Virus record (IMG/VR): IMGVR_UViG_3300006332_000940
Coordinates: 1 to 27,065 of that record
Direction: 5' to 3' (one strand)
Source of the DNA: a virus
DNA length: 27,065 nt
Below, one piece after another: positions 5,192 to 26,772 of this stretch. The translations under genes and the position numbers were made by a program. The notes beneath the pieces are model-generated. The model did no database searches, was not told the DNA's origin, and worked only from the letters and a program-made list of their open reading frames with translations. Within the stretch, counting starts at the first letter, position 1. Each line of letters begins with the position of its first letter.

Positions 5192-8100
5192 ATGGCTCTC
5201 CCAGAAAAATTCTCACATAACCAGGATCATCCTCAAGTTTATACTCCTCAACAAGCCAAAAAATATCATTACACTCCTCAGATAGCTAAACAACTTACTA
5301 GAGATGCCATGTATAAGGATCTCGGTTTAGGTGCTGACACGGAAGTCGCTAAGACTTCCCCTTTGTTTGATCCAAGACAATTTGCTCTTCCTTCGGCTCC
5401 GACGAAGGAAAGCAATCCTGTTTTTGATATCCCAATATTGGGTCCTGCGTTGGACTTGTTGGACACTCCGAGGGCTGGAATTGTTTCAGCTATTAAAGAG
5501 TTCGGAGATATTTTCGATGATGAAGAAAGTTTTTCTCTGGGGGATTGGTGGGAACAGACTGGTGACAACATCTTCATGGGAGAGGTGTTGCGTGATTGGG
5601 GAGTTGATCTTCCTGGGCCTTTGGATTTTGCTCTTGGGTTGACGTTAGATATTGCGTTTGATCCTTTGACGTATTTGTTGCCGTTGGGTGCGTGGGCACG
5701 AGTAGCTACGAAACCTCAGATGGTAAAACATTTGAAAGATGCCGCTAACGCAGCAAAATACGGAAAAGTTAAGGATGCAGCTAAAGCAACAAGAATGGAG
5801 GATGCTGCTGCACGAGTAGCTGAACGAGGCATCTTTGCTGCAGGTAAAGATGTCTTAGAAGAACTTGGATTGCCTACTGCAATAAAGTTCTCAGTTCCTC
5901 TTACTGGGCGCATAGGTCAAGGAATATTTGAACGACCACTAAGGAACATTCCTGGGGTTGGTCAAAGGTATGCTGCTTGGGCAAATGCGAAACGTGTAGG
6001 CCAACTTAAACCAATCAACACTGAAGTAGTTGATTTGGTTGATAAAGCTGGTCGTCCTCTTAAAGCATTAGATGATGCGGCCATACAGACAAGAGTTCTT
6101 AAAGCTGTTAATGAGTTAGACGCAGCTAAACGTGCTGGAACTACAAAACAAGTTGCAGAACGTATTGTTACTCGTGCTCCCAAAACAGGTGAACAGGTTG
6201 TTAGGTCTGCTCGGACAGCCCAAAGAATGCCGATTGAAGCACCGTTTAAGCTTCCTATTGGGTTTGGTGTTTTAGCTGTTGTTGCTGGGCTTCCTGGCAA
6301 GGCTATGGGGCAAGCCCAAAAATCGAAAATGGTAAACACCCTTAGCGAAGGTTTGTCTACTCGTTTTCATTTGAATCAAATGTATCGCTCTGGTGATATA
6401 AACCAGATCGAAAACGCATTGTGGCTAGAAGGCGCAGCTAACCGTGGTCTTATTAAAGACAATGTTTTTAGAACTAAACACACGCAGGAGCTTGGCAATA
6501 TAGCTAGGACTGCCCGAGAAGCTGATATCGACTTTGACGATATCTTTCGGGGCGCTAACGAAAAGATGGGTAGCGAAGCTGCAGGTCGTGTCAACGTGTT
6601 GTTGGGTCCTGTAGCTAAAGGTGGTAGCCAAGAAGTCCAAGACATAGTTGTGCGTTTGCAGAAATGGTTTGATGAAGTTCTGAGGACGTATAACGAGGCT
6701 TTGCCTTGGCAGGATGATCTTCCTGGGCTGTTATCTGAGATGTATGTCACTCGTCAGATCCATGGGAAAGACCTTGATCTTGTTTACAAGAACGCTAAAA
6801 GCGTTCGGGTGCAAGATTTAGAAGGGCTTTCAGGAAGTCCTTTTAAGAACCGTGAACTTGTTTTGCCTGACGAAATTAAAGCGCAAGCTGCTGATGGTTA
6901 TGTTCCTGCGGCGGAACAAACAAGGATTGCATCTCAATATGGGATGACTTTTGAAGAAGTCCTTGATGCAGGTTTGCCTGTGCAGGTAACAACGACGGAT
7001 GGAAGAGTCTTACGTTCTCATTTCATGGGAGAAGGTTTTCTTCCTTACGATCAAGGCGGCAGTGTTCTTACCCAGATGGATACGATAGGTACTCGTAATC
7101 TGGGTTCTGATTATCGCAAACTATTTACAGAAGACGCTAATTTGGCTCTAAGTAAATATTTGCAAATGATGGGCGAAAACATTCGTGCTCAGTCCATTGT
7201 TGGTGATCTGTCTCAAGCTGGGATCATTGTTAAAGCTAACGATGCAGGTTTAGCTTCACGTTATGTTGGTCGCAAAGTTGCTGCAGATATTCAGGATGCT
7301 AAAGGCGCAGTTAAGAAAACGCAGAGAGCAAAACAAAGGATAGAGAAGAGAGTTGCTGCTGCTGCGAGAGTTATTTCTAAATATGCGGAAGAGCCGATAG
7401 ATGAGCTTGTTGCTGCTCAACCTAGGAACCGTAAAGGTTCAGGGACGATGCGGCCTCGAACTGCCGCAGCGGTTGATGAGTTAGCAAACATTGAAGCTCA
7501 AATGGTTGACGTTGAGAGTGCGCTTACTGCTTTGATAGAAGGCACTGCAGATAATTTGACTGCAGGCGCTAGACGCTTGTTGGCTTCTGGAGATCCTGAG
7601 CAGATAAGAATTAAAGGACAGTTTGGTCCGAAGCTTCAACGTGCAGTACCTCCTGAGGGGACTGCTAAAGAACAGCGTGCTCTTAGGAAAGCTCAAATCG
7701 CTGAAGAAGATATTGCTAGTGCTACAGAAGAATTAGTTAAAATTCGCGAAGACATTCATCAGCTTATGAAAGCACATGGTGAGCTACAAATACGGATGAG
7801 CCGAGCAGGTGCTGGGACTAATCAAGAGTTTGTTGCTGAAGTTCAAGCGATGGGAGAATATCTACAGCTTTACGCTGAAGATATTGAAAGAATCGCTCAA
7901 AATTATGTAGCAAATGTTTTAGAGTTATCTGAGAATGTTCAAGCTGCTCGAATATTGAGCGAGCTAGGGGAAGGATTGTTTGGAGACATTCAAGTCTTTA
8001 AACGTAATCCTTCGGTGGCGTTAGAAGACAAGCTTGACGCTGCTAGAAACACTCTTAAGGAAACTGAAGCAGGTCTTACACCTTTGCAAACTGTTGATGT

Positions 8101-11100
8101 TCCTCTTGGTGGGGGGTCTGAAACTAAAGCGATTGTGAATGCTTACAAAGAAGCTAATCCTGATTGGGCTTCTAGTTCTTCTATGACCATCGTATCTTCT
8201 GGTGGTCAAGTGACCCTAAAGAATGTTGGCGAGTTGCAACTTGAACGCTTCCAAAGGTTTGTTGAAGATTATGTTGCTCAAAGATCTGGGACAGCGGTCC
8301 AAAGCGGTAAGCCTTTACAGAAAGCTGCTCAAGAGCCTTCGACATGGAGTGGGGCCAAATCCGCAGGAGCGGAGAATTGGCCTGCACAGTACGTTGACGA
8401 CGTTAATGGTTTGATCGCTGAAGAGTTAGCTGCTGGATCAACTGTAAAGTTTTCTACTGGTCCGTCAAAAGCTGTGGGGGTTACGGGAGGCAGGGTTCGT
8501 CCTACTGATGGTGGGTTGACTGAGTTTGGTGGAGAATCATTCACTATCAGTAAGCGTTCTGATGCTGAGTGGGTTGTGAATGTTGACGGTGACGAGATCC
8601 CTATTACGGGACCTCGGGCTTCTGCTACTACGGGAAAGAACAGCGGTGAGCAAGGGCTTGTTGTATGGCTTCCTCGTCAGCAGCGTTCTATTTATTTTAA
8701 TCCAACTCCTAAAGCTGGGACTTACGCTCAGAATGTTAAGAAGGGTTCTAAGCAGCAAGTTACTGCATCTCGAAATGTTGGCAAGAAGATTGAAGATGCT
8801 TTAGATCAGAGAGCCACAAATATAGAGAAACAAGAACAGCTTATTGCTAAAGAGCAACGACGAGTAGAAGAACTTAGACAGCAATTTGAAGGAACTATTT
8901 CTAGGAATGTGTACGAGCATTATCGTTTAGCCCAATTTGCTGGGTCAGAGGCTGTTAGCCCTGTTCCTGCAAAGTCGGTAGTTGAACGTGTTGCGGTAAG
9001 GATGCCTGCTAGGGAAGTTCCTGCTCCTCCTACTCCTAAGGTTCAAAGAAGAGATCGTCCTGTTAATAGTGGCGGTGTTCATCGTTTGGCTGATGGGGCG
9101 ATAGAAGTTGATGGGCCTAAGGGTTCGAGGGTTCGTTTGACTGGTCAGCAAGCAGAGCAGTATTTAGCTGATCGTGCTGCAAGGATGACTGCGAGAGGAG
9201 AGCCTGCTGCTCAAATGTCTCCTCGCATGGAGCCAGGTGGCGTTGTTGAGCGTGATGTGTTTGCTGTGAATGCTCATACTGACGAGTTGTGGGTTTATGC
9301 TGATTCTGGTGTTCCGACACCTAAAAGCTGGTATTACGGATTGGAAGAACCTCCTGTTGGGAGTGGGCCTAAAGCTGAAACGACGTTGGGGAATGTGGAT
9401 CGCCCTTTGTTTCAGGTTCGTCCAACGGACGAGTCTTACAGACTTGCAGATGGAACTGAAATTCGTGTTTATGAAGCTATTGAAATGCAACCTAAGTCAA
9501 CGAGCAGGTTTGATCTAGTAGATCAGGTCATAGACGAACCTATGTCAATAGGACTCCCAGGAGGCGGCTCTATTCCAGTTCCTCGCCCCGATGTGCCTGT
9601 CTACAAGAGGGCGAGGTCTGCTGATCGTCAGTTCCGTTCTCGGCAAGCTAAGAACGGTTGGGTTTACTTAGACGACTTTGATGCTGTCGATGCGTTGGAA
9701 GCAGGAACCTATGTTCCTCCTTCCCCGAAAATGCCGAAGCGTACTACTGCTGGTGAACAGAAAGTAATAGAACAAATATTTTCTTCTGAGCCTTATAGGG
9801 AGTGGATCAAGTTGGCTCAGGAAGTTCGTAGGCTTCAAACAGATTTGTTTGAGGCAGAGAAGTTCTTGTTGAGCAATATGAATGCTCCTCAAGCTGTGAT
9901 TGAAAATGCTACTCAAAGAAGCGTTCAAGCTGTTGAACAAATTCTTGATGCAAGAATTACAGCTTTAGAGGATCAGATTCGTGCTGGGGTTAAGGGTAAG
10001 GCTGGGGCTGTTAAGAACAGAGAGACTGTACGTCAGCTTCAAGCTCGGAAAGAATATTTGGAAGAACAGAAAGTTAAGGTTCTTCAAGAGGTAGATAATA
10101 TTCGTGAGTGGTTGGCTGAAGTTGTTCCTGAGCTACGGGATGCTTTGCAAACTACGAAGATTGATGAGGCGCAGCTAGCTGTTGTTGAGGCTGGCATTGC
10201 TTGGCAGCAACAATATATTCGTAATTTGTCTCTAGATCTTCAAAGAACTTTGGATGATGTGCAAGCTGGCACTGTTAAGCGGATGGACGCTGCACTCAAT
10301 CAAAAAGAAGCATTAAAAGTATTACGGAATGCTAGAGAACGAGCCAATCTTTCTGCAGCTTATGAAGAATATGTTGAAGATTATTTAATTACTGGTTCTA
10401 CTTTAGGTAAGAGTTCTGAGAGATCTAGTCGAACTCGTCAGCACTTAAAGGGCTATCAGCTTGTAGGGGCTACTGATGAAACAGTAGAGCTATTTGAAGC
10501 TGCGTTTGAGTCGATGGCTAGATTGCGTGATCCTATTCGTACTAAAGAATTTATGACTAAGTACGACAAAGTAATTAACTATTGGAAAGCTCAAGCTGTC
10601 GCAACTCCAGGTTTCGTTTTCCGTAACCTTCTTGGTGGTACTTGGATCAATAACCAAATTGCTGGTGTGCCTGTGAGCTATCAACTTCGCATAGACATTA
10701 TGCGAAGGAAAGCTTTGAAAGTTGCTGCTGAAGATGGACGGCAAGGCGATGTGGCTTACGGAGCGAGGAAAATAGCTGCGGAAGGCAAGTCAACTAAAGC
10801 TGGGTATGGCTTAATGAATGTTGAGCCTGCCGAGTGGGATGTCATGGCTGACTGGGCAGAAACTGGTATGGGTAATACTGGTATCACTTCGATGGAAGTC
10901 AACTCAGCTATTAACGACATGGGAATGAGTTGGCGAGAAGCAGGAACAATTAACCCAGTCAGTAGAGATTTCTATTTGTTTGCGGCTATTGGTCGTCTTA
11001 ACCAGCGAGCAGAGTTCACACTTCGTGGTTCTCTCGCTCATCACGTAATGATGAATGGTGGCAGCAGAGAAGAAGCTCTAAACGCTGTATACAAATATCA

Positions 11101-11851
11101 TTTCGATTACGGCAACCTCACTGCCTTAGACCAAAAAATTAAAAGAGTTATCCCATTCTGGACATGGCAGAAAAACATTCTGCCTGTCCTTCTTGAATCA
11201 TTCGGTAAACGACCTCAAGCTTGGGCAAGACTTGTTCAAGTCAAAGGTGAACTTGAACTGACTTCAGACAAAGAAGGATTAGTTCCTGACTACTTCGGAG
11301 AGAACATGGCAATTAGGTTGCCATTTACTGCAGGCGGCAATCGTGTGTATGCCATGCCTGATCTTCCTTTCAGGGACCTTGCCAGATATCTGAAGTCTCC
11401 CACTTCTCCTGCGAGAAGTTTGATTGAAGGTGCTCTTCCTCATTACAAGTTACCTATCGAGTTGTGGGCTAAGAAGCGTACGTTTGCTGACATACCGTTC
11501 ACTGGCAGATACCAGCAAGTACCTATAGCTATTGAAAAACTTCCTGGGGCTATGCAGTTGCTTGGTGCTTTTGGTAAAGCAGAGAAGAATAAAGCTGGTC
11601 AGTGGAAGATGCGAGATCAAGACATTTACATTATTGAACAGTTGATGCCTATTCTTGGTCGTGCCCGTCGTTTAGCTCCTAATGAGGAAGCTAAACAAAA
11701 AAGACTTATCACTACTTATCTTTCAACTTTCCTTGGTTTGGGTGTAAGGACAAACACTCCTCAGGAAAAACGAAACCAACTTATTAAAGATAGGATCAAG
11801 TATTCTCAAGATATGAGAGATGTTCGGGACCTTATGGGCAGAAGCGTATAA
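5192..11851 (+). CDS. Giant virion protein (2219 aa), putative DNA-ejection protein
   Basis: This gene occupies a quarter of the window. Residues about 75-180 are moderately hydrophobic (ILGPALDLLDTPRAG, LDFALGLTLDIAFDPLTYLL). A candidate membrane segment lies near residues 355-370 (FGVLAVVAGLPGKAMG). Charged, probably coiled-coil helices lie near 700-760, 1200-1240 and 1545-1700. A Pro-rich, low-order zone covers about 1260-1500. The C-terminal 450 residues look most conserved, with PGFVFRNLLGG.W.NNQ.AG near 1803 and RVIPFWTWQKNILPVLLES near 1984, motif types I recall from very large phage proteins of uncertain function. I see no lysozyme motif or RNA polymerase signature. Its length and the preceding pair of genes suggest a T7 gp16-like ejection role by analogy. 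Confidence 0.6.
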   Translation: MALPEKFSHNQDHPQVYTPQQAKKYHYTPQIAKQLTRDAMYKDLGLGADTEVAKTSPLFDPRQFALPSAPTKESNPVFDIPILGPALDLLDTPRAGIVSAIKEFGDIFDDEESFSLGDWWEQTGDNIFMGEVLRDWGVDLPGPLDFALGLTLDIAFDPLTYLLPLGAWARVATKPQMVKHLKDAANAAKYGKVKDAAKATRMEDAAARVAERGIFAAGKDVLEELGLPTAIKFSVPLTGRIGQGIFERPLRNIPGVGQRYAAWANAKRVGQLKPINTEVVDLVDKAGRPLKALDDAAIQTRVLKAVNELDAAKRAGTTKQVAERIVTRAPKTGEQVVRSARTAQRMPIEAPFKLPIGFGVLAVVAGLPGKAMGQAQKSKMVNTLSEGLSTRFHLNQMYRSGDINQIENALWLEGAANRGLIKDNVFRTKHTQELGNIARTAREADIDFDDIFRGANEKMGSEAAGRVNVLLGPVAKGGSQEVQDIVVRLQKWFDEVLRTYNEALPWQDDLPGLLSEMYVTRQIHGKDLDLVYKNAKSVRVQDLEGLSGSPFKNRELVLPDEIKAQAADGYVPAAEQTRIASQYGMTFEEVLDAGLPVQVTTTDGRVLRSHFMGEGFLPYDQGGSVLTQMDTIGTRNLGSDYRKLFTEDANLALSKYLQMMGENIRAQSIVGDLSQAGIIVKANDAGLASRYVGRKVAADIQDAKGAVKKTQRAKQRIEKRVAAAARVISKYAEEPIDELVAAQPRNRKGSGTMRPRTAAAVDELANIEAQMVDVESALTALIEGTADNLTAGARRLLASGDPEQIRIKGQFGPKLQRAVPPEGTAKEQRALRKAQIAEEDIASATEELVKIREDIHQLMKAHGELQIRMSRAGAGTNQEFVAEVQAMGEYLQLYAEDIERIAQNYVANVLELSENVQAARILSELGEGLFGDIQVFKRNPSVALEDKLDAARNTLKETEAGLTPLQTVDVPLGGGSETKAIVNAYKEANPDWASSSSMTIVSSGGQVTLKNVGELQLERFQRFVEDYVAQRSGTAVQSGKPLQKAAQEPSTWSGAKSAGAENWPAQYVDDVNGLIAEELAAGSTVKFSTGPSKAVGVTGGRVRPTDGGLTEFGGESFTISKRSDAEWVVNVDGDEIPITGPRASATTGKNSGEQGLVVWLPRQQRSIYFNPTPKAGTYAQNVKKGSKQQVTASRNVGKKIEDALDQRATNIEKQEQLIAKEQRRVEELRQQFEGTISRNVYEHYRLAQFAGSEAVSPVPAKSVVERVAVRMPAREVPAPPTPKVQRRDRPVNSGGVHRLADGAIEVDGPKGSRVRLTGQQAEQYLADRAARMTARGEPAAQMSPRMEPGGVVERDVFAVNAHTDELWVYADSGVPTPKSWYYGLEEPPVGSGPKAETTLGNVDRPLFQVRPTDESYRLADGTEIRVYEAIEMQPKSTSRFDLVDQVIDEPMSIGLPGGGSIPVPRPDVPVYKRARSADRQFRSRQAKNGWVYLDDFDAVDALEAGTYVPPSPKMPKRTTAGEQKVIEQIFSSEPYREWIKLAQEVRRLQTDLFEAEKFLLSNMNAPQAVIENATQRSVQAVEQILDARITALEDQIRAGVKGKAGAVKNRETVRQLQARKEYLEEQKVKVLQEVDNIREWLAEVVPELRDALQTTKIDEAQLAVVEAGIAWQQQYIRNLSLDLQRTLDDVQAGTVKRMDAALNQKEALKVLRNARERANLSAAYEEYVEDYLITGSTLGKSSERSSRTRQHLKGYQLVGATDETVELFEAAFESMARLRDPIRTKEFMTKYDKVINYWKAQAVATPGFVFRNLLGGTWINNQIAGVPVSYQLRIDIMRRKALKVAAEDGRQGDVAYGARKIAAEGKSTKAGYGLMNVEPAEWDVMADWAETGMGNTGITSMEVNSAINDMGMSWREAGTINPVSRDFYLFAAIGRLNQRAEFTLRGSLAHHVMMNGGSREEALNAVYKYHFDYGNLTALDQKIKRVIPFWTWQKNILPVLLESFGKRPQAWARLVQVKGELELTSDKEGLVPDYFGENMAIRLPFTAGGNRVYAMPDLPFRDLARYLKSPTSPARSLIEGALPHYKLPIELWAKKRTFADIPFTGRYQQVPIAIEKLPGAMQLLGAFGKAEKNKAGQWKMRDQDIYIIEQLMPILGRARRLAPNEEAKQKRLITTYLSTFLGLGVRTNTPQEKRNQLIKDRIKYSQDMRDVRDLMGRSV

Positions 11852-12989: not shown

Positions 12990-13307
12990 GTGGAAGAGGA
13001 ATTTGAGGATACTTGGGCCATTTGGATGGCCGAAGAAGGCTTAGAGCTTGAGGATCAAATACATCACGAACTCTTAGCTAACCGCCATTTGATGGACATT
13101 AATGATGGCACCCATGGAACTTGGGTGGACGGCACCTTAGGTGTGCTCATGGTGTTCGACGATGACGAGATCCGAGAATTTCTTGACGCTTGGCAGGATT
13201 CACGCAAGGGAAACTTAATGAGTTTGACTTCGATCATGCAATGGTTGGAGCATCTCAGTTCGTTTCTTCAGGATTGTGTGGATGCTCACGATAACCTGAA
13301 CGAATAA
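12990..13307 (+). CDS. Acidic 105-aa protein at the end of the late operon
   Basis: The frame is open further upstream, but that part lies inside the holin-like gene. The GTG at 12990, five bases after the holin-like stop, is therefore preferred; ATG 13026 is an alternative. The protein is strongly acidic and Trp-rich (EEEFEDTWAIWMAEEGLELEDQ, DDDEIREFLDAWQDSRKG). No known domain is recognised. It is the last rightward gene, and its final 53 bases overlap the 3' end of the leftward HTH gene. Position suggests a late role, but function is unknown. Confidence 0.55.
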   Translation: MEEEFEDTWAIWMAEEGLELEDQIHHELLANRHLMDINDGTHGTWVDGTLGVLMVFDDDEIREFLDAWQDSRKGNLMSLTSIMQWLEHLSSFLQDCVDAHDNLNE

Positions 13308-18124: not shown

Positions 18125-18160
18125 GTGGGTGCCCAGCAGGGAGAGGAACTGGGCACCCAC
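18125..18160 (-). terminator. Perfect 12-bp inverted repeat, intergenic hairpin 1
   Basis: GTGGGTGCCCAG (18125-18136) pairs perfectly with CTGGGCACCCAC (18149-18160) around a 12-nt loop. It lies between the HNH gene and the nuclease gene, 30 bases before the latter's start. There is no T-run on either strand, so it is not a classic intrinsic terminator. It may be an attenuating or RNA-processing hairpin. Strand is assigned by the direction of the flanking genes. Confidence 0.6.
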
Positions 18161-18167
18161 AAGATTA

Positions 18168-18203
18168 AATGGGGGGTGACCCTTTGGGGGGTCACCCCCC
18201 ATT
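18168..18203 (-). terminator. Perfect 15-bp inverted repeat, intergenic hairpin 2
   Basis: AATGGGGGGTGACCC (18168-18182) pairs over all 15 bases with GGGTCACCCCCCATT (18189-18203) around a 6-nt loop. It sits 21 bases after the HNH stop in the direction of transcription and directly before hairpin 1. The stem is very GC-rich, but no T-run follows. It may separate the early genes from the nuclease-helicase-primase operon or be an RNase III-type processing site. Confidence 0.6.
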
Positions 18204-18224: not shown

Positions 18225-18656
18225 TCAAGCTTTCGCATTTTCTAAATACACGGCTGCGTTAAGAAGACGGTCTGTTTCTTCTCTCATCCAACCGATACCA
18301 CGGTTACAGGTATTGCAAAGTAGCCCTCTTACTTTTCCAGTGAGATGGCAATGATCCACTACTAGCAGTTCAGAAGTGGGATGCTCGCTGTCAGCAGACT
18401 GACAGATAGCACACTTACCTTCCTGTTCCTTAAACATGCGGTCATAGTCTTGGGGAGTTATCCCGTATCGGTGCAAAGTTTTCTTTCTGCGCCATTCAGG
18501 TCCCCGTTTGCGTTCGTAGTCACGCATGGCTTGATTGTGGCAGGTACGACAGCGTGAACGTACGCCGAGTTTGCCTGTTGATTGTTTATGGAAATTGGTG
18601 AGTGGCTGAGGGTTCTCCTCAGGACACTCTTCGTTGTAACAAGTTTTAGTATTCAT
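18225..18656 (-). CDS. HNH endonuclease, recombination endonuclease VII type
   Basis: This 143-aa protein has an N-terminal zinc-knuckle segment with C6, C11, C36 and C39. A basic helix follows (RDYERKRGPEWRRKK) and then the linker HRYGITPQDYDRMFKEQEGKC. The core has C82 and C85, the catalytic VVDHCHLTGKVRGLLCNTCN (D101, H102, H104) and C114 and C117. This is the Endonuclease_VII Pfam pattern; T4 gp49 of this family resolves branched DNA before packaging. The length is typical. Its start overlaps the upstream stop (ATGA). It may nick junctions along with RusA or act on host DNA. Confidence 0.88.
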   Translation of the reverse strand: MNTKTCYNEECPEENPQPLTNFHKQSTGKLGVRSRCRTCHNQAMRDYERKRGPEWRRKKTLHRYGITPQDYDRMFKEQEGKCAICQSADSEHPTSELLVVDHCHLTGKVRGLLCNTCNRGIGWMREETDRLLNAAVYLENAKA

Positions 18657-22506: not shown

Positions 22507-22560
22507 GGTGATTCTCTCCCTTAATTTGTGATGTTGGCTAGACATCTGAATAAGCCATGA

Positions 22561-22599
22561 GGAACACCAAACTTACTGTTCCAGTAAGTCTGGTGTTCC
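22561..22599 (-). repeat. Palindrome copy 1, nested in a long hairpin
   Basis: The 17-mer at 22572-22588 is CTTACTGTTCCAGTAAG on the + strand, inverted relative to the other six copies. It is enclosed by GGAACACCA (22561-22569) and TGGTGTTCC (22591-22599), giving 17 paired bases with one mismatch. A further TCTGAAT/ATTCAGA pair (22545-22551, 22608-22614) can extend it. It lies between the DUF932 gene and the next gene. It may be an operator, a processing hairpin or a terminator without a T-run. Confidence 0.75.
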
Positions 22600-22609
22600 C
22601 GAGTCTCAT

Positions 22610-23593
22610 TCAGACCTGAACGAGTTGGCGTGCAGCCCTATCAGTGAGTGGCATTGACCCGAATAGCAGACGGTCAAGGTGCCGTCCTTGTTTCGTGCCA
22701 CCACGCACCTGTTGGACGTGCTGCTCATATCCCTGTACAGCCATGAGCGCACCCCACTTGGTTTCCCTGATGCCGCCATCAAGGTCATCGTGGTAGTAAC
22801 GGGCAGTTATCTTGTCGAAGGTTTTATCCCAAGACGTTTGGCTCCTGCCCTCATCCTCTGGACGTTGACCCAACAGACTCCTAGTTAGGTCACCGAAATT
22901 GCCAGCGGTGTAGCTCTCGTTGATAAGCCGTTCTACTTGCTCATCGAGATGTTGTTGCAGCTTGGCTGCCTCAACGAACGAGTCGATAGCCCATTGCAGA
23001 TAGCTAGTGGCATGACGAGTGTGCTTGATAGACCATGAAGCCTGCACACCTAGCACGTAGGCAGCGAATGTGTTTGAACACACCACCACTCCGATGGTTG
23101 GACGGCCTGAAGCGGCAATCGTCCCATCATGTGCATCAGTCAGTGTGAAGTATTTATGGATATCGCTGTAGCCCTCAATCTTTAGAGGCGAACCCATCTC
23201 CAGTGTCACGTATGCCTTTCGACCGTGATTAAGGGTGCCCTTGGATGCAACTCCAGCGGAGAAACCGTGATCTAAAAGTTTCTCTACAGCGGCATCCATC
23301 TCATCATATTGAGTGATGCCTCTGCCCTCGGTTACTCCCACATTTAGTGGGAACCCATTGTCGTCACGACGAATGACGAAGCCATTATTTACGTCCCATT
23401 CGGAAACAGGTGTGTAGATAATCTCCCCGTCAATCATGTCTTGGACATACAGTTCTTGGCGGTTGGCTTGGAATTGCCATGGATTCTCTGCGTACTCCTC
23501 TGCGGAGAGCAGGTGACCATAGGTGATCCCTTTGCCATGCCAAGCTGTATTGGCGTAGACCGCTAGGTCATCGCCGTAGATTTCAGCAGACAT
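22610..23593 (-). CDS. DUF932 / TIGR03299-type phage protein
   Basis: This 327-aa protein opens with VYANTAWHGKG, the conserved start of the DUF932 phage/plasmid family. It continues with DVNNGFVIRRDDNGFPLNVGVTEG, GSPLKIEGYSDIHKYFTLTDAHDGT, PTIGVVVCSNTF and SIKHTRHATS, segments that recur in the family. The length is standard. Function is not known; it is common in actinophages and plasmids and is often an early gene. The ATG follows AAGGAG. It has its own strong promoter-like sequence and a palindrome copy in its leader, so it is probably an independently regulated transcription unit. Confidence 0.85.
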   Translation of the reverse strand: MSAEIYGDDLAVYANTAWHGKGITYGHLLSAEEYAENPWQFQANRQELYVQDMIDGEIIYTPVSEWDVNNGFVIRRDDNGFPLNVGVTEGRGITQYDEMDAAVEKLLDHGFSAGVASKGTLNHGRKAYVTLEMGSPLKIEGYSDIHKYFTLTDAHDGTIAASGRPTIGVVVCSNTFAAYVLGVQASWSIKHTRHATSYLQWAIDSFVEAAKLQQHLDEQVERLINESYTAGNFGDLTRSLLGQRPEDEGRSQTSWDKTFDKITARYYHDDLDGGIRETKWGALMAVQGYEQHVQQVRGGTKQGRHLDRLLFGSMPLTDRAARQLVQV

Positions 23594-23631
23594 GCTGACT
23601 CCTTACTTGGTTGTTTATGTTGTTAATGGGA

Positions 23632-23652
23632 GACTTACTGGAACAGTAAGTC
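23632..23652 (-). repeat. Palindrome copy 2 in the DUF932 leader
   Basis: GACTTACTG GAA CAGTAAGTC with 9-bp arms lies 39 bases upstream of the DUF932 ATG. It is about 47 bases downstream of the -10 element of the promoter at 23699, so it should be transcribed. It could act as a DNA operator/roadblock or as an RNA hairpin in the leader. Confidence 0.8.
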
Positions 23653-23660
23653 GCTCATCG

Positions 23661-23712
23661 TGGGATGAAGGGGCGTCGAACCCCTAACCACTAGAACCAT
23701 TCTATCATCCCA
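23661..23712 (-). other. tRNA-like element without anticodon arm (about 52 nt)
   Basis: On the - strand, TGGGATGA (from 23712) pairs perfectly with TCATCCCA (ending 23661), forming an acceptor-like stem of 7 bp plus an outer pair with a terminal A. Directly next to its 3' strand is a T-arm, AGGGG TTCGACG CCCCT, with the canonical G-TTCGA-..C features. After the 5' strand come T, A and G, as at tRNA positions 8-10. A stretch CTAGTGGTTAG reads like a D-loop. No anticodon arm fits. Alternatively the middle forms TAGAA-TGG-TTCTA. A promoter -10 overlaps it. It may be a tRNA remnant, an att relic or a functional tRNA-like RNA. Confidence 0.5.
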
Positions 23713-23727
23713 TACAGGTAATGTCAA
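23699..23727 (-). promoter_or_regulatory. Sigma70-like promoter for the DUF932 unit
   Basis: On the - strand TTGACA (23727-23722) and TAGAAT (23704-23699) are separated by exactly 17 bases, with TG one base before the -10 (extended -10). The match is 6/6 and 5/6 to consensus. The predicted start is near 23692, giving a leader of about 100 nt that holds the T-arm-like GC hairpin and a palindrome copy. A second TTGACA lies about 18 bases further upstream without a matching -10. Confidence 0.7.
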
Positions 23728-23766
23728 GTACCCGCGTACCCATTTTGTCAAGGTACACAGGACTCG

Positions 23767-24102
23767 TCACTTGTACCTGCCACAAGTCCACAAGTCCCAC
23801 CCCCCACGAGTGTTCTCATGTATGTAGTGAGCCATCCATGTTGACTGCACTACTTCGTATCGTTTCGGCCAGTGTTTTTCAAACACATGGCCCCAATAGT
23901 GTTCGTTTATCTGAAACAATCCATGATCTACCCCGTTGTAGGCACGAGGATTGTGCAGTGACTCGCACCACGCAACTCCCAGCGCCCTCACGCAGTCGTC
24001 TGCAAAATATTCGCAAACGACTTCAGGGATTTCGGCATTCGGTGGCTCATAGTTCACCGATGCGAAGTCAAGGATTGACCAGATAGCCAACCAAAGATTC
24101 AT
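23767..24102 (-). CDS. Lysozyme/transglycosylase-like protein (111 aa)
   Basis: After a hydrophobic start (MNLWLAIWSILDFASV) residues 38-105 read VRALGVAWCESLHNPRAYNGVDHGLFQIN...VVQSTWMAHYIHENTRGGWDLWTCG. This is the lysozyme-like SLT arrangement: catalytic E47 in A-x-C/x-E-S, the GLFQIN strand, and the late GGW..W..C. C30, C37, C46 and C107 could form disulfides, suggesting an extracytoplasmic location; the N-terminus may be a signal or anchor without the usual basic residues. It would cut glycan strands of peptidoglycan. It lies in the early operon, far from the main lysis genes. Start in ATGA overlap. Confidence 0.75.
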   Translation of the reverse strand: MNLWLAIWSILDFASVNYEPPNAEIPEVVCEYFADDCVRALGVAWCESLHNPRAYNGVDHGLFQINEHYWGHVFEKHWPKRYEVVQSTWMAHYIHENTRGGWDLWTCGRYK

Positions 24103-24332
24103 CCATCCCCCAGTAGCATTAGACCCAAACGAATATCCGACAGCCCTTGATACAGAGCCTCATCTGCCCGATTCAGGTCATTGTTCTCCCTCAGGTAGTC
24201 AAGAATCTCAAGTATGTGAAATAGCTGATGTTTGGTTATCTGCACCTTTCGAGTCTTGTCCTCGCAGTCGCCATCGGCGCAGTCACCGAAGCCACCACAG
24301 ATGTTGCATATTTCTTCGTCGAATTTCAACAT
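24099..24332 (-). CDS. 77-aa Cys-cluster protein
   Basis: ATG 24332 is chosen because it overlaps the previous stop by one base (TAATG); a longer reading to 24377 runs through the upstream gene. The N-terminus EEICNICGGFGDCADGDCED has four Cys (CxxC-x6-C-x4-C) that may bind a metal. The rest is helical (HQLFHILEILDYLRENNDLNRADEALYQGLSDIRLGLMLL). No family is recognised. Confidence 0.5.
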   Translation of the reverse strand: MLKFDEEICNICGGFGDCADGDCEDKTRKVQITKHQLFHILEILDYLRENNDLNRADEALYQGLSDIRLGLMLLGDG

Positions 24333-24610
24333 TATCGTAAAGGGTGATCCTCTCTGTCTGCCCCATACAACATCCACACTGCCTGAGGCAGCTTCAAGTC
24401 ATATGACAAGGCATGACACCAGCCGTCATACCCATAGTTGTTGAAGTCCTTGACAGCAACAACAAAGGGTGCATCAGGAAACGCACACATCTCAGGTGGG
24501 CGTTTCACCAGTATCCTGAACAACCCATCAGTAGGGTCGTCGGGATACATCTTGTCCATCTCAATGATTGGGTAACCATTGGATGTGATTGGTTTATCGT
24601 GTTCCAACAC
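24332..24610 (-). CDS. Hypothetical protein (92 aa)
   Basis: It starts at a GTG with GGGAGAGAGACT upstream, inside the preceding small gene. The product (PITSNGYPIIEMDKMYPDDPTDGLFRILVKRPPEM..., NNYGYDGWCHALSYDLKL) appears to be a small soluble alpha/beta protein. No motif is recognised. It belongs to the early leftward operon headed by the promoter at 25715. Confidence 0.5.
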   Translation of the reverse strand: MLEHDKPITSNGYPIIEMDKMYPDDPTDGLFRILVKRPPEMCAFPDAPFVVAVKDFNNYGYDGWCHALSYDLKLPQAVWMLYGADREDHPLR

Positions 24611-24755
24611 AGTCTCTCTCCCATTCTCCAGTGTTTGGATTCATTACATGCGTGATCCAACCAGTCTTGGTTCGATTGTCACGCTTGGTTTCTCGTTGCC
24701 ATTGGTTGCGGCGATGTTTCCGCAACTTCTTTCTATTCTGAGCAGTCTTAGACAT
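24594..24755 (-). CDS. 53-aa very basic protein
   Basis: The frame is open to 24959, but most of that lies inside the membrane-protein gene. ATG 24755 has GGGGAGAG upstream and overlaps the previous stop by 8 bases, so it is preferred. The product MSKTAQNRKKLRKHRRNQWQRETKRDNRT... is extremely Lys/Arg-rich and ends NPNTGEWERDCVGTR. It may bind nucleic acid. No family is recognised. Confidence 0.5.
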   Translation of the reverse strand: MSKTAQNRKKLRKHRRNQWQRETKRDNRTKTGWITHVMNPNTGEWERDCVGTR

Positions 24756-24990
24756 TGCTCTCCCCTTTCTTAATGAGGTCCTGTTCAGCTTCCTTAGACC
24801 AGTCGTACGGTTTCCCGAACTCTGTGCCCATGTACATGATGTCCAGCATCTCCTGAGTGCGCCGCACCCAGTACTCATGCTGCTCCATCTCTTTCTTGCG
24901 AGCGTTGTATGCCCATATCCCAACGAATACGCAAACACACAGAAGTATGAATGCTGCACCCATCGGTGTTATCCAAGGCCACGTAGTCAT
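24748..24990 (-). CDS. Single-pass membrane protein (80 aa)
   Basis: ATG 24990 is preceded by GGAGAGGAGAG; the longer reading from 25056 lacks this and overlaps the previous gene. Residues about 9-29 (PMGAAFILLCVCVFVGIWAY) form one transmembrane helix, followed by NARKKEMEQ and an acidic cytoplasmic-type tail (MLDIMYMGTEFGKPYDWSKEAEQDLIKKGE). Topology is likely N-out/C-in by the positive-inside rule. Possible roles are spanin-like, holin-like or superinfection exclusion. It is encoded three genes before the lysozyme-like protein in the same operon. Confidence 0.6.
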   Translation of the reverse strand: MTTWPWITPMGAAFILLCVCVFVGIWAYNARKKEMEQHEYWVRRTQEMLDIMYMGTEFGKPYDWSKEAEQDLIKKGESNV

Positions 24991-25006
24991 GGCTCTCCTC
25001 TCCTTG

Positions 25007-25252
25007 TTACCAGCCAGACATATGGCCGAACGCATCGTCCGACCATCGAATGGCATCGTTGAATGTTTCTATCTTCTGGTACTTCAATTCATCTACCAGA
25101 TCTTTATTCCTGACTGCTTCAATGCATGATCCATGACGAATCTTGATTGCAACAGTCAATGCGAGATAGAACGTCGTACGTTCGTTCTCGCTAGCGTTAG
25201 GGTTGTCCTTCAAGTCTTTCAACTTGAAGTGCCCATTCTCAATCCAGATCAC
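25007..25252 (-). CDS. Hypothetical protein (81 aa)
   Basis: An ATG at 25333 exists, but it would read through the palindrome copy and overlap the previous gene. The GTG at 25252 has AGGGAG upstream and leaves the palindrome (25275-25291) in the intergenic gap, so it is chosen. The product (VIWIENGHFKLKDLKDN...TTFYLALTVAIKIRHGSCIEAVRNKDLVDELKYQKIETFNDAIRWSDDAF) is a small soluble helical protein. No family is recognised. Confidence 0.5.
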   Translation of the reverse strand: MIWIENGHFKLKDLKDNPNASENERTTFYLALTVAIKIRHGSCIEAVRNKDLVDELKYQKIETFNDAIRWSDDAFGHMSGW

Positions 25253-25274
25253 TGTAAATATCTCCCTTTCTGTA

Positions 25275-25291
25275 CTTACTGGAACAGTAAG
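25275..25291 (-). repeat. Palindrome copy 3
   Basis: CTTACTGGAACAGTAAG with 7-bp arms fills the 40-base gap between the stop at 25293 and the GTG at 25252, 22 bases before the start codon. It has no 9-10 bp extension, unlike most copies. Its position supports the GTG start and a role at gene boundaries. Confidence 0.8.
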
Positions 25292-25292
25292 A

Positions 25293-25643
25293 TCATGTGC
25301 TGTATTGAAGCGCCTCTTGTCTGGCAGCTTCAAGTTCAGCGGTTGTAGGAGGATGACCTAAACAGTCAAGCTCCATGAACCCTTTGTCACTCGTCCACAA
25401 CGCCACATGATATGTGCGGTGTAGATCAACGAGTCCTTGTCGGGTAATGAACCTGTATGGTTCGTGATTACAAGATAGCAACGGATTAACCGATACGTCC
25501 GTGTCTGGGTGAACGACAAAGAACTGATCGTTCGTTTCAAACAGAGTCCGCACAATCTCCCAATCTCCAGTAGGCCAGCTAAAGGAGGCTAAGAGAAGTA
25601 CGTCGGAACCTCGGGTAGTCCGTGCGTTACTGCGTGGCAGCAT
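25293..25643 (-). CDS. Hypothetical protein (116 aa)
   Basis: The ATG follows GGGGAGAG. The product has LLLASFSWPTGDWEIVRTLFETNDQFFVVHPDTDVSVNPLL, then FITRQGLVDLHRTYHVALWTSDKGFMELD and an Ala/Glu helix at the end. It looks like a small alpha/beta domain; no motif is recognised. It is the first gene of the operon transcribed from the promoter at 25715 and has a palindrome copy in its leader, 14 bases before the start, so expression could be controlled there. Confidence 0.5.
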   Translation of the reverse strand: MLPRSNARTTRGSDVLLLASFSWPTGDWEIVRTLFETNDQFFVVHPDTDVSVNPLLSCNHEPYRFITRQGLVDLHRTYHVALWTSDKGFMELDCLGHPPTTAELEAARQEALQYST

Positions 25644-25657
25644 CGCTCTCCCCTCTG

Positions 25658-25680
25658 GAACTTACTGGAACAGTAAGTTC
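25658..25680 (-). repeat. Palindrome copy 4, longest arms
   Basis: GAACTTACTG GAA CAGTAAGTTC has perfect 10-bp arms, the longest of the family. It lies about 35 bases downstream of the -10 at 25715 and only 14 bases upstream of the ATG at 25643, so its RNA form would sit beside the ribosome binding site (GGGGAG). Confidence 0.85.
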
Positions 25681-25688
25681 GCTCCGCA

Positions 25689-25742
25689 GGTGGACTCTCC
25701 ACCCACCAACAACTATTTTACCATACCCACAAATAAAGTCAA
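25689..25742 (-). promoter_or_regulatory. Sigma70-like promoter with initial hairpin
   Basis: On the - strand TTGACT (25742-25737) and TAAAAT (25720-25715) are 16 bases apart, with TG at the extended -10 position (TATGGTAAAAT). Each hexamer matches 5/6 to consensus. Immediately downstream, GGTGGA...TCCACC (25689-25703) can form a 6-bp hairpin at the start of the transcript, followed by a palindrome copy. It should drive the operon from 25643 to 23767. Confidence 0.65.
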
Positions 25743-25862
25743 GTCATTCTTGACGCCAGTAGTCACTGCCCACGGCACCTCCCCATTCACTATCAGAACT
25801 ACAGAGCACACGGCACACGGCACTATTCATTCACTCATTCACTATCAGACATAAACACAAAC
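25743..25862. other. Gene-free spacer between terminators and early promoter
   Basis: The interval has no supported gene. It contains two similar segments, TTCACTATCAGA at about 25796 and 25841, and the near-repeat CACGGCAC. Short direct repeats such as CACGGCACACGGCAC and CATTCACTCATTCACT are visible. This could be protein-binding sequence upstream of the promoter at 25715, but no specific site is recognised. Confidence 0.35.
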
Positions 25863-25894
25863 AAAAAAAAGAGAATGAATCTTTCGATCCATTC
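25863..25894 (-). terminator. Intrinsic terminator T2
   Basis: On the - strand the stem GAATGGATC / GATTCATTC (8 of 9 pairs) with loop GAAA is followed by TCTTTTTTTT, a clear T-run. It lies downstream of palindrome copy 5 and of terminator T1. It has the same GATC-GAAA-GATC tip as T1. Confidence 0.8.
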
Positions 25895-25900
25895 TAAGTG

Positions 25901-25919
25901 ACTTACTGGAACAGTAAGT
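25901..25919 (-). repeat. Palindrome copy 5, between two terminators
   Basis: ACTTACTG GAA CAGTAAGT with 8-bp arms lies between terminators T1 and T2. It repeats the palindrome-then-terminator order that follows the 250-aa gene. No start codon is nearby, so its function here cannot be leader-specific. Confidence 0.8.
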
Positions 25920-25921
25920 AC

Positions 25922-25956
25922 AAAAAAAAGGGGAGGGATCTTTCGATCCCTCCCCC
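25922..25956 (-). terminator. Intrinsic terminator T1 of the 250-aa gene
   Basis: On the - strand a perfect 11-bp stem, GGGGAGGGATC / GATCCCTCCCC, with loop GAAA is followed by eight T residues (25922-25929). This is a strong rho-independent terminator for the gene ending at 25975. Confidence 0.9.
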
Positions 25957-25975
25957 ACTTACTGGAACAGTAAGT
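25957..25975 (-). repeat. Palindrome copy 6, at a stop codon
   Basis: ACTTACTG GAA CAGTAAGT ends at the stop codon of the 250-aa gene (stop 25977-25975) and is followed within a base by terminator T1. Its arms are 8 bp. Confidence 0.8.
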
Positions 25976-26727
25976 TAGGCCGTAGCCTTAGCAGCTTCCT
26001 GCTCTGCTACTGTCTCTTCGCAGTTGGCAACCATGGTTGCAGTATTCGCAAGGAAGTTGCGAATAGTGTCAGCATGCTTCACGCCGCCAGCAGCATCAGT
26101 TGCTAGACGCTTGTTCAGAGCTTCTAGCTGTTGTGCAGCAGCTTTCACCAGAGCATCAGTAGATACCTTAGGTGCGCGATTCCTACCGCCTCCATTCTTG
26201 GTATTACCTTTACCCTTACCCTTACCGCTACCGTTCTTATTACCCGAACGCTTAGACTCTTCAGGCTTGCTAGCGTTAAAGGCTTTACTGACTTTCTCTG
26301 CCAGATCACTAGTCAACCATTCAGCGTTACCCTTAGATTCTTTCCTAGCATCTCTCAGGGTTTGAATAGCAGCAGAACGGCCACCATGGGTATCAACTGG
26401 ATCAAGCGCAGGCTTAATCTTTGCCAGACAATCCATCGAACCAACTAGCTTTTTCTCTGCCATGGTTGCAGTGATGACTTTAGTCTCCACTAGCCAGTGC
26501 AGAGCAATGCCAGCAGCATTCCAACTAGACCAACGCCTATCGGTAAAGTCTGGGCCGATTGACTTCTGAAGTTGTGCTTTAACCTCTGACACCTCAGAGC
26601 GTCCTAGGTCTTTAGTTACTGCACCTAGGCTGTATGCCCAGTTCTGCATTGCTAGGCCAATAGTTACCTTTAACTCGCCGTAAGAAGTTGTCAGCTTCTT
26701 AACGGTATTACTTATCTTCGTAGCCAT
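25975..26727 (-). CDS. Leading early protein with Lys/Gly-rich linker (250 aa)
   Basis: The ATG follows GGGAGG. Residues 1-150 form a mixed helical domain (VKKLTTSYGELKVTIGLAMQNWAYSLGAVTKDLG..., RRWSSWNAAGIALHWLVETK). Residues about 155-190 are a low-complexity basic linker with GKGKGKGNTKNGGGRNR, encoded by a GGTAAG-type repeat. The C-terminus is an Ala-rich helix pair ending EETVAEQEAAKATA. It is the first leftward gene, alone between a palindrome leader and two terminators, which suggests high early expression of a small regulator or nucleic-acid-binding protein. I recognise no family. Confidence 0.6.
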   Translation of the reverse strand: MATKISNTVKKLTTSYGELKVTIGLAMQNWAYSLGAVTKDLGRSEVSEVKAQLQKSIGPDFTDRRWSSWNAAGIALHWLVETKVITATMAEKKLVGSMDCLAKIKPALDPVDTHGGRSAAIQTLRDARKESKGNAEWLTSDLAEKVSKAFNASKPEESKRSGNKNGSGKGKGKGNTKNGGGRNRAPKVSTDALVKAAAQQLEALNKRLATDAAGGVKHADTIRNFLANTATMVANCEETVAEQEAAKATA

Positions 26728-26751
26728 AGTGGCTACCTCCCTATTGTTAGC

Positions 26752-26772
26752 GACTTACTGGAGCAGTAAGTC
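26752..26772 (-). repeat. Palindrome copy 7, variant centre
   Basis: GACTTACTG GAG CAGTAAGTC has perfect 9-bp arms; the centre is GAG instead of GAA. It lies 24 bases upstream of the ATG of the 250-aa gene. A GC hairpin, CGGAGGG / CCCTCTG (26772-26790, one G-T pair), directly precedes it in the transcript. No convincing promoter is seen immediately upstream. Confidence 0.8.

Follow-up and report, generated by a model that had tools for sequence, protein, structure and literature searches.

Dispersed palindromes of uncultured marine phages change together with the first early gene

The window analysed here is the whole 27,065-nucleotide (nt) stretch of IMG/VR record IMGVR_UViG_3300006332_000940, from an uncultured marine phage, and its early region carries seven copies of the palindrome CTTACTG-3-CAGTAAG. 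Comparison with relatives from marine metagenomes reveals that the sites of this kind are multi-copy, lie between genes and downstream of promoters, are private to lineages and co-vary with the first early gene, which in the window encodes a protein of 250 amino acids (aa). We suggest, with a probability of about 0.5, that the 250-aa protein is a new and fast-diverging regulator, which binds the palindromes and controls early transcription. All data are assembled sequences and the analysis is computational throughout.

The full form of the window palindrome is CTTACTGGAACAGTAAG (Table 1). All seven copies are perfect inverted repeats, and shuffled sequence gives a mean of 0.05 matches. A preliminary description of this DNA had located the copies correctly; six of them are exact and the copy at 26754 has one loop change (GGAGC). 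It had also confined them to the early region and to places outside genes. Indeed, no eighth copy is present in 27 kb, all seven lie within the leftward early region and all seven are intergenic by independent gene calls, while the closest partial match, at 18328, is within a gene and has two mismatches. The centre (TTC on the coding strand) is directed the same way in six of the seven copies, as had been described, and is reversed at 22572. Two details are changed here. The arms, given as 7 base pairs (bp) and in most copies as extended to 8-10 bp, are of 8 bp (ACTTACTG...CAGTAAGT) in six of the seven copies, and of the two copies assigned to the space between a stop codon and terminators, that at 25958 is so placed but that at 25902 has a terminator on either side (25956-25929 and 25895-25872).

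About 100 related loci were obtained by protein searches and scanned for repeated hairpins. Most relatives with the early region in view have a single-palindrome family of their own with 3 to 13 copies, and in about 20 marine-metagenome relatives the early region has a multi-copy family particular to the phage, with the arms GACCTAG-4-CTAGGTC, GTTACTA, AAATATA, TTCTAAC, TCTAGAA, CGTCGCG-4, GGCGCGC, TGTGGAA or TTTAATT. Families of 4-11 copies are observed versus a largest family of 1-2 in Markov simulations. In other viral contigs the window palindrome occurs in seven copies solely in the nearest relative, G002 (relatives are given by our G and L numbers), at the same seven sites with nearly equal spacing, and elsewhere as single copies. 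Perfect copies are intergenic in 105 of 125 cases over 19 contigs, against 18.7 expected; these totals are descriptive, because contigs of the same clade are not independent and the gene calls are our own. The TGTGGAA family (G023, G027) is an exception, with many copies within open reading frames. In G031 and L032 a copy is found inside an apparent N-terminal extension of the first gene (L032 2644-2733 and relatives), which suggests that translation may start about 30 codons downstream of the apparent start. No multi-copy family is present in the stretches fetched of the cultured DUF932 phages Jace and Sonali and of the environmental record MW202803, and no description of this palindrome system was found in the open-access literature.

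The palindromes are replaced between phages which are otherwise nearly the same. Across most of 13.9-25.3 kb, G001 and the window share 94-96% identity (85% in one stretch), and the palindrome of G001 is ACCTAG-4-CTAGGT. At the junction of the DUF932 gene and the 152-aa gene the flanks of the two phages are identical up to the palindrome hairpin and the palindrome itself differs. No alignment to G001 is obtained for the window block at 25.27-26.84 kb, in which both the first gene (250 aa) and the 116-aa gene lie. The much more distant G006 has the ACCTAG palindrome in common with G001, and thus the palindrome code does not track genome relatedness. G035 and G036 share 99.2% identity along 9.9 kb. 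Of the 76 differences between them, five cluster in 18 bp at one palindrome, four inside it (TTATAACACCGTTATAA versus TTCTAACAATGTTAGAA) and one just outside; the next ones lie at distances of about 920 bp and 290 bp. G008 and G016 (about 96% identity) have switched palindromes at all three shared sites.

The positions of the sites are kept. They recur 53-65 bp ahead of the gene after DUF932, 33-42 bp ahead of DUF932 and around the first early gene, and the G008 clade has an additional site 69 bp ahead of the exonuclease gene. At this last place the window has no palindrome and carries instead two strong hairpins (18129-18201, minus strand; GGGGGGTGACCCCCC and TGTGGGTGCCCAG...CTGGGCACCCACA) downstream of a TTGACG-16-TATAAT promoter. 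For 22 of 114 sites the -10 box of a strong sigma-70 promoter ends 25-60 bp upstream, as against 1.8 sites on average and 7 at most for random positions; none of the sites was found to overlap such a promoter, and the remaining sites include stop/terminator junctions. The sites thus appear to occupy transcribed but untranslated places. The preliminary description had proposed looking for copies which are absent or at random positions in relatives; the gene-boundary positions prove to be kept and the palindrome letters to be replaced in each relative. This conservation of position with replacement of letters goes beyond what had been foreseen, and the check came out in favour of the earlier interpretation.

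The 250-aa first gene is the sole sizeable early gene of the window whose BLAST relative is limited to G002. Its product comprises an N-terminal part of about 150 aa, conserved only with the palindrome-sharing relatives, a low-complexity G/K/N linker and a helical C-terminus, and it has no relative in Pfam, PHROGs, NCBIfam or PDB. Phages with an identical palindrome have first genes of 84% (L032/L030), 77% (window/G002), 69% (G008/L169) and 67% (G015/L174) identity; the L169 and L174 cases turned up after the hypothesis had been formed. First-gene pairs at 68, 36 and 29% identity have related palindromes, and the 109 pairs without detectable first-gene similarity share zero half-sites. Half-site matches of similar first-gene pairs average 5.64 versus 3.13 when permuted, and 0 of 20,000 label permutations, uncorrected for shared ancestry, reach this value. 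A rank Mantel test gives a rho of 0.16 (249/5000 permutations), which is low because most pairs are at zero similarity; for this reason we relied on the permutation of labels among similar pairs. Shared ancestry accounts for some of the co-variation, and not for the contrast between the window and G001. Between the window and G002, with one common palindrome, the first gene is 82-92% identical N-terminally and 42% at the C-terminus, while between L032 and L029, with a changed palindrome, identity is 95% at the C-terminus and drops to 39% in the middle. The N-terminal part thus appears to carry the specificity. It had been stated earlier that none of the genes is an obvious repressor; by homology this stands, however, the comparison indicates the 250-aa protein, which is very probably the partner of the palindromes.

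From these comparisons we infer the following mechanism of binding, roadblock, self-shut-off and exclusion. Host RNA polymerase would initiate at the strong sigma-70 promoters. The 250-aa protein, once made, would attach to the palindromes, be they in a transcribed leader, at a gene boundary or next to a terminator, and in the bound state would control elongation across the early region. Most likely, a dimer on duplex DNA would act as a roadblock, a mode of action for which we see even odds. The protein would damp its own gene first and the other early genes next, and perhaps also the early genes of a second phage using the same code. The protein/palindrome pair would be particular to each lineage and would diverge much faster than the remaining genome.

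Several observations weigh against the 250-aa protein as a DNA-binding regulator, besides the ancestry contained in the permutation test. No DNA-binding domain is recognisable in it, two AlphaFold models are all-helical and weak (predicted local distance difference test, pLDDT, 60 and 66), and three fold searches gave no match. In the contrast between the window and G001 the 116-aa gene is replaced along with the 250-aa gene. In G006, G016, G035 and G036 the first gene is past the contig end, and the switches in these phages are therefore uncheckable against it; when the first gene of the ACCTAG family was sought in other contigs, it was found in G001 only. As for the duplex, among the sites of families chosen for a fixed asymmetric centre 48 have it oriented with transcription and 2 against, which speaks against a symmetric dimer on DNA, because such a dimer should be indifferent to orientation; families with free centres have no orientation bias. 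Beyond the arms, the two flanks of a given site are complementary to each other (290 versus 235 shuffled, z 6.2), which would fit a hairpin better than an operator.

These last two points favour a different mechanism, which we regard as a tentative possibility: the palindrome would fold into a hairpin in nascent RNA, of a leader or a junction, and be bound in this form by the first-gene protein. The hairpin would then serve antitermination past the terminators after the first gene, as boxB does with N in lambda, or define a specific site of processing or translation control. The promoter-proximal sites sit in the transcribed leader and never overlap -35 or -10 boxes. A hairpin of -40 to -48 kcal/mol with the palindrome at its apex is retained at the DUF932/152-aa junction of all seven relatives examined, and the coding strand is always the more stable; in the window the copy at 22572, which is 21 bp past the stop codon and 27-65 bp ahead of the next start (depending on the start codon), is the apex of a long hairpin (about 22543-22617), and an 85-nt hairpin topped by it has -45.6 kcal/mol and z -8.2. 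In lambda, N and boxB form phage-specific pairs, and boxB is read mainly by its loop on a 5-bp stem. The resemblance includes phage-specific pairing, hairpins between promoter and gene and beside terminators, and a first early gene followed by terminators, in an order (promoter, hairpin, first gene, hairpin, terminator, hairpin, terminator) like that of lambda PL-nutL-N-tL1. However, a nut-type test gave a divided result: hairpins form, centres are oriented in some families and loops are free in others. Stems here are of 6-8 bp and of fixed sequence within a genome, and loops are often free, the reverse of boxB; each genome has 3 to 13 copies and not a single one for each operon; and the candidate protein is much larger than lambda N and mostly not arginine-rich. 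G-U pairs are not in excess over C-A in arms or flanks, and arm mismatches (G-U 12, C-A 10, other 14) have no strand bias; as a discriminator between RNA and DNA, the G-U and C-A counts proved uninformative. The invariant half-sites, with centres free in several families, and the mismatches without strand bias speak for duplex DNA. We lean towards arms that are read as DNA, and an influence on elongation that depends on direction, as for stoperators.

It is unlikely that a different phage protein or a host protein binds the palindromes and that the first gene is linked to them by position only. The lack of a visible DNA-binding domain, the joint replacement of the 116-aa gene and the presence of further fast-evolving genes (helix-turn-helix, HTH, protein 63%, 111-aa protein 58%) would allow it. 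However, the HTH, 111-aa and 152-aa proteins fail to track the palindrome between G001 and G006, a host factor leaves different palindromes in near-identical phages unexplained, and all four first-gene pairs at 67-84% identity have exactly the same palindrome. The HTH/sigma-like protein at 13255, put forward previously as a candidate binder, is rejected as the partner because it does not co-vary with the palindrome: it is 88% identical between the window and G006 despite different palindromes, and 61% between G001 and G006 despite the common one. Very improbable is a mobile or selfish repeat, like repetitive extragenic palindromic (REP) sequences or miniature inverted-repeat transposable elements (MITE), or a product of template-switch repair, without a regulatory role and kept uniform by within-genome copying: perfect symmetry without G-U bias is compatible with hairpin-templated correction and whole sites turn over between near-identical genomes, but the positions are kept while the sequence is replaced, placement versus promoters and stop codons is strongly non-random, the flanks of swapped sites have no insertion in clear cases, and the families follow the first gene.

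The earlier comparison with stoperators, together with the proposal of a new operator family or a leader hairpin recognised by a phage protein, appears to hold up. Stoperators of cluster A mycobacteriophages are 13-bp asymmetric sites, 20-30 per phage; the immunity repressor of these temperate phages (Rep, gp71) is a monomer with HTH and Stoperator domains, and divergence of repressor and sites broadly tracks that of the genomes (PMC6550527, PMC9283540). As in cluster A, many sites lie in short intergenic gaps, are oriented by transcription and are not limited to promoters, partner and sites would diverge together and differ between phages (judged here by co-variation), and the early region is transcribed from one genome end. 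Unlike in cluster A, the sites are palindromes of 13-18 bp with 6-8 bp arms, number 3-13 and are mostly confined to the early region, the candidate partner is a first-early-gene product without known fold and without a match to an HTH/Stoperator-domain repressor, and the code is replaced inside genomes of 94-99% identity. We do not file the palindromes as cluster A stoperators, because the asymmetric 13-bp site and the family repressor were both tested for and not found. By analogy, they would be functionally alike, dispersed lineage-specific phage sites with a co-diverging partner. The function of stoperators in lysogens may not apply here, because no tyrosine or serine integrase was found among 18 relatives, whose contigs are possibly incomplete. 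In cluster K mycobacteriophages, the start-associated sequence (SAS) is asymmetric, 13 bp long and directly adjacent to the start codon, and the extended form (ESAS) is an imperfect inverted repeat; neither is known to change wholesale between near-identical phages. Like the palindromes, they are repeated intergenic elements ahead of gene starts in an actinophage (PMC3203893), and it is by description that we set them apart. N4-type hairpin promoters with a virion RNA polymerase were also considered and rejected, the 2219-aa protein of the window having neither a polymerase match nor conserved polymerase motifs across relatives.

A joint change of specificity of a regulator and its many dispersed sites is a long-standing question, puzzling because the intermediates should fail. 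At a little under even odds, we propose that the N-terminal part of the first gene and all dispersed palindromes switch jointly in otherwise 94-99% identical phages, and represent a new family of early regulators. This family would sort co-occurring and possibly strictly lytic marine phages into recognition classes, and its sites would be active in 3' junctions and transcribed leaders, where they may work as RNA hairpins. Nature offers pairs of almost identical phages that have already switched, and for several codes a small candidate protein, which makes the question accessible to tests with purified protein and short oligonucleotides. Should the code lead phages to exclude one another, it would be an immunity-like compatibility system in a group of uncultured marine phages in which no integrase was found.

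Table 1 Palindrome copies and neighbouring elements in the early region of the window
Feature	Position	Strand	Remark
Palindrome copy 1	26754..26770		Leader of the 250-aa first early gene, start codon 26 bp downstream
First early gene, 250 aa	25975..26727	-	Candidate cognate recogniser
Palindrome copy 2	25958..25974		Immediately past the 250-aa gene stop codon, ahead of terminator 1
Terminator 1	25929..25956	-	Hairpin with T run, intrinsic-terminator-like
Palindrome copy 3	25902..25918		Flanked by terminators 1 and 2
Terminator 2	25872..25895	-	Hairpin with T run, intrinsic-terminator-like
Sigma-70-type promoter TTGACT-16-TAAAAT	25715..25742	-	37 bp from -10 box end to copy 4
Palindrome copy 4	25661..25677		Leader of the 116-aa gene (25293-25643)
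Palindrome copy 5	25275..25291		1 bp past the 116-aa gene stop; 81-aa gene start 22 bp on
Sigma-70-type promoter TTGACA-17-TAGAAT (11/12)	23699..23727	-	48 bp from -10 box end to copy 6
Palindrome copy 6	23634..23650		Leader of the DUF932 gene, start 40 bp downstream
Palindrome copy 7	22572..22588		Centre reversed; between the DUF932 gene and the 152/165-aa gene

Two further elements are present in the early region of the window. Past the first-gene terminators there is a paired motif, GATAGTGA (25787-25794 and 25839-25846, minus strand); such pairs occupy the corresponding place in most of the clade, often with one opposite-strand copy upstream of the first gene, and in contrast to the palindromes the motif is not private to lineages. 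A tRNA-like element (23655-23713, minus strand) overlaps the DUF932 promoter, and has an acceptor stem GGGATGA/TCATCCC, a T-arm GGGGTTCGACGCCCC and a small extra arm. Its shape is kept with compensating changes in some relatives, its fold z-score is just -1.6, and ARAGORN calls no tRNA on it. It may be what is left of an old attachment site, or a decoy. Rfam gives only weak matches, far under the curated cut-offs.

The gene set of the window includes a DnaB-like helicase, a primase, an exonuclease, the DUF932 protein (TIGR03299), GP88 and an amidase endolysin, and a near-DNA search against known phages gave no match to the window. Relatives of the helicase occur on a contig binned with an Acidimicrobiaceae metagenome-assembled genome (MAG), at 85%, and in an Actinomycetota MAG, at 78%, and the host is therefore likely, not proven, to be a marine actinobacterium. 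The 2219-aa virion-side protein (5192-11851) is retained in most relatives (23-58% identity) and has no relative in Pfam, PHROGs or PDB. Two genes at 161-463 and 464-943 have Mtd_N (major tropism determinant N-terminal) domains, and the genes downstream of this pair differ strongly among relatives, which suggests a variable region of receptor binding.

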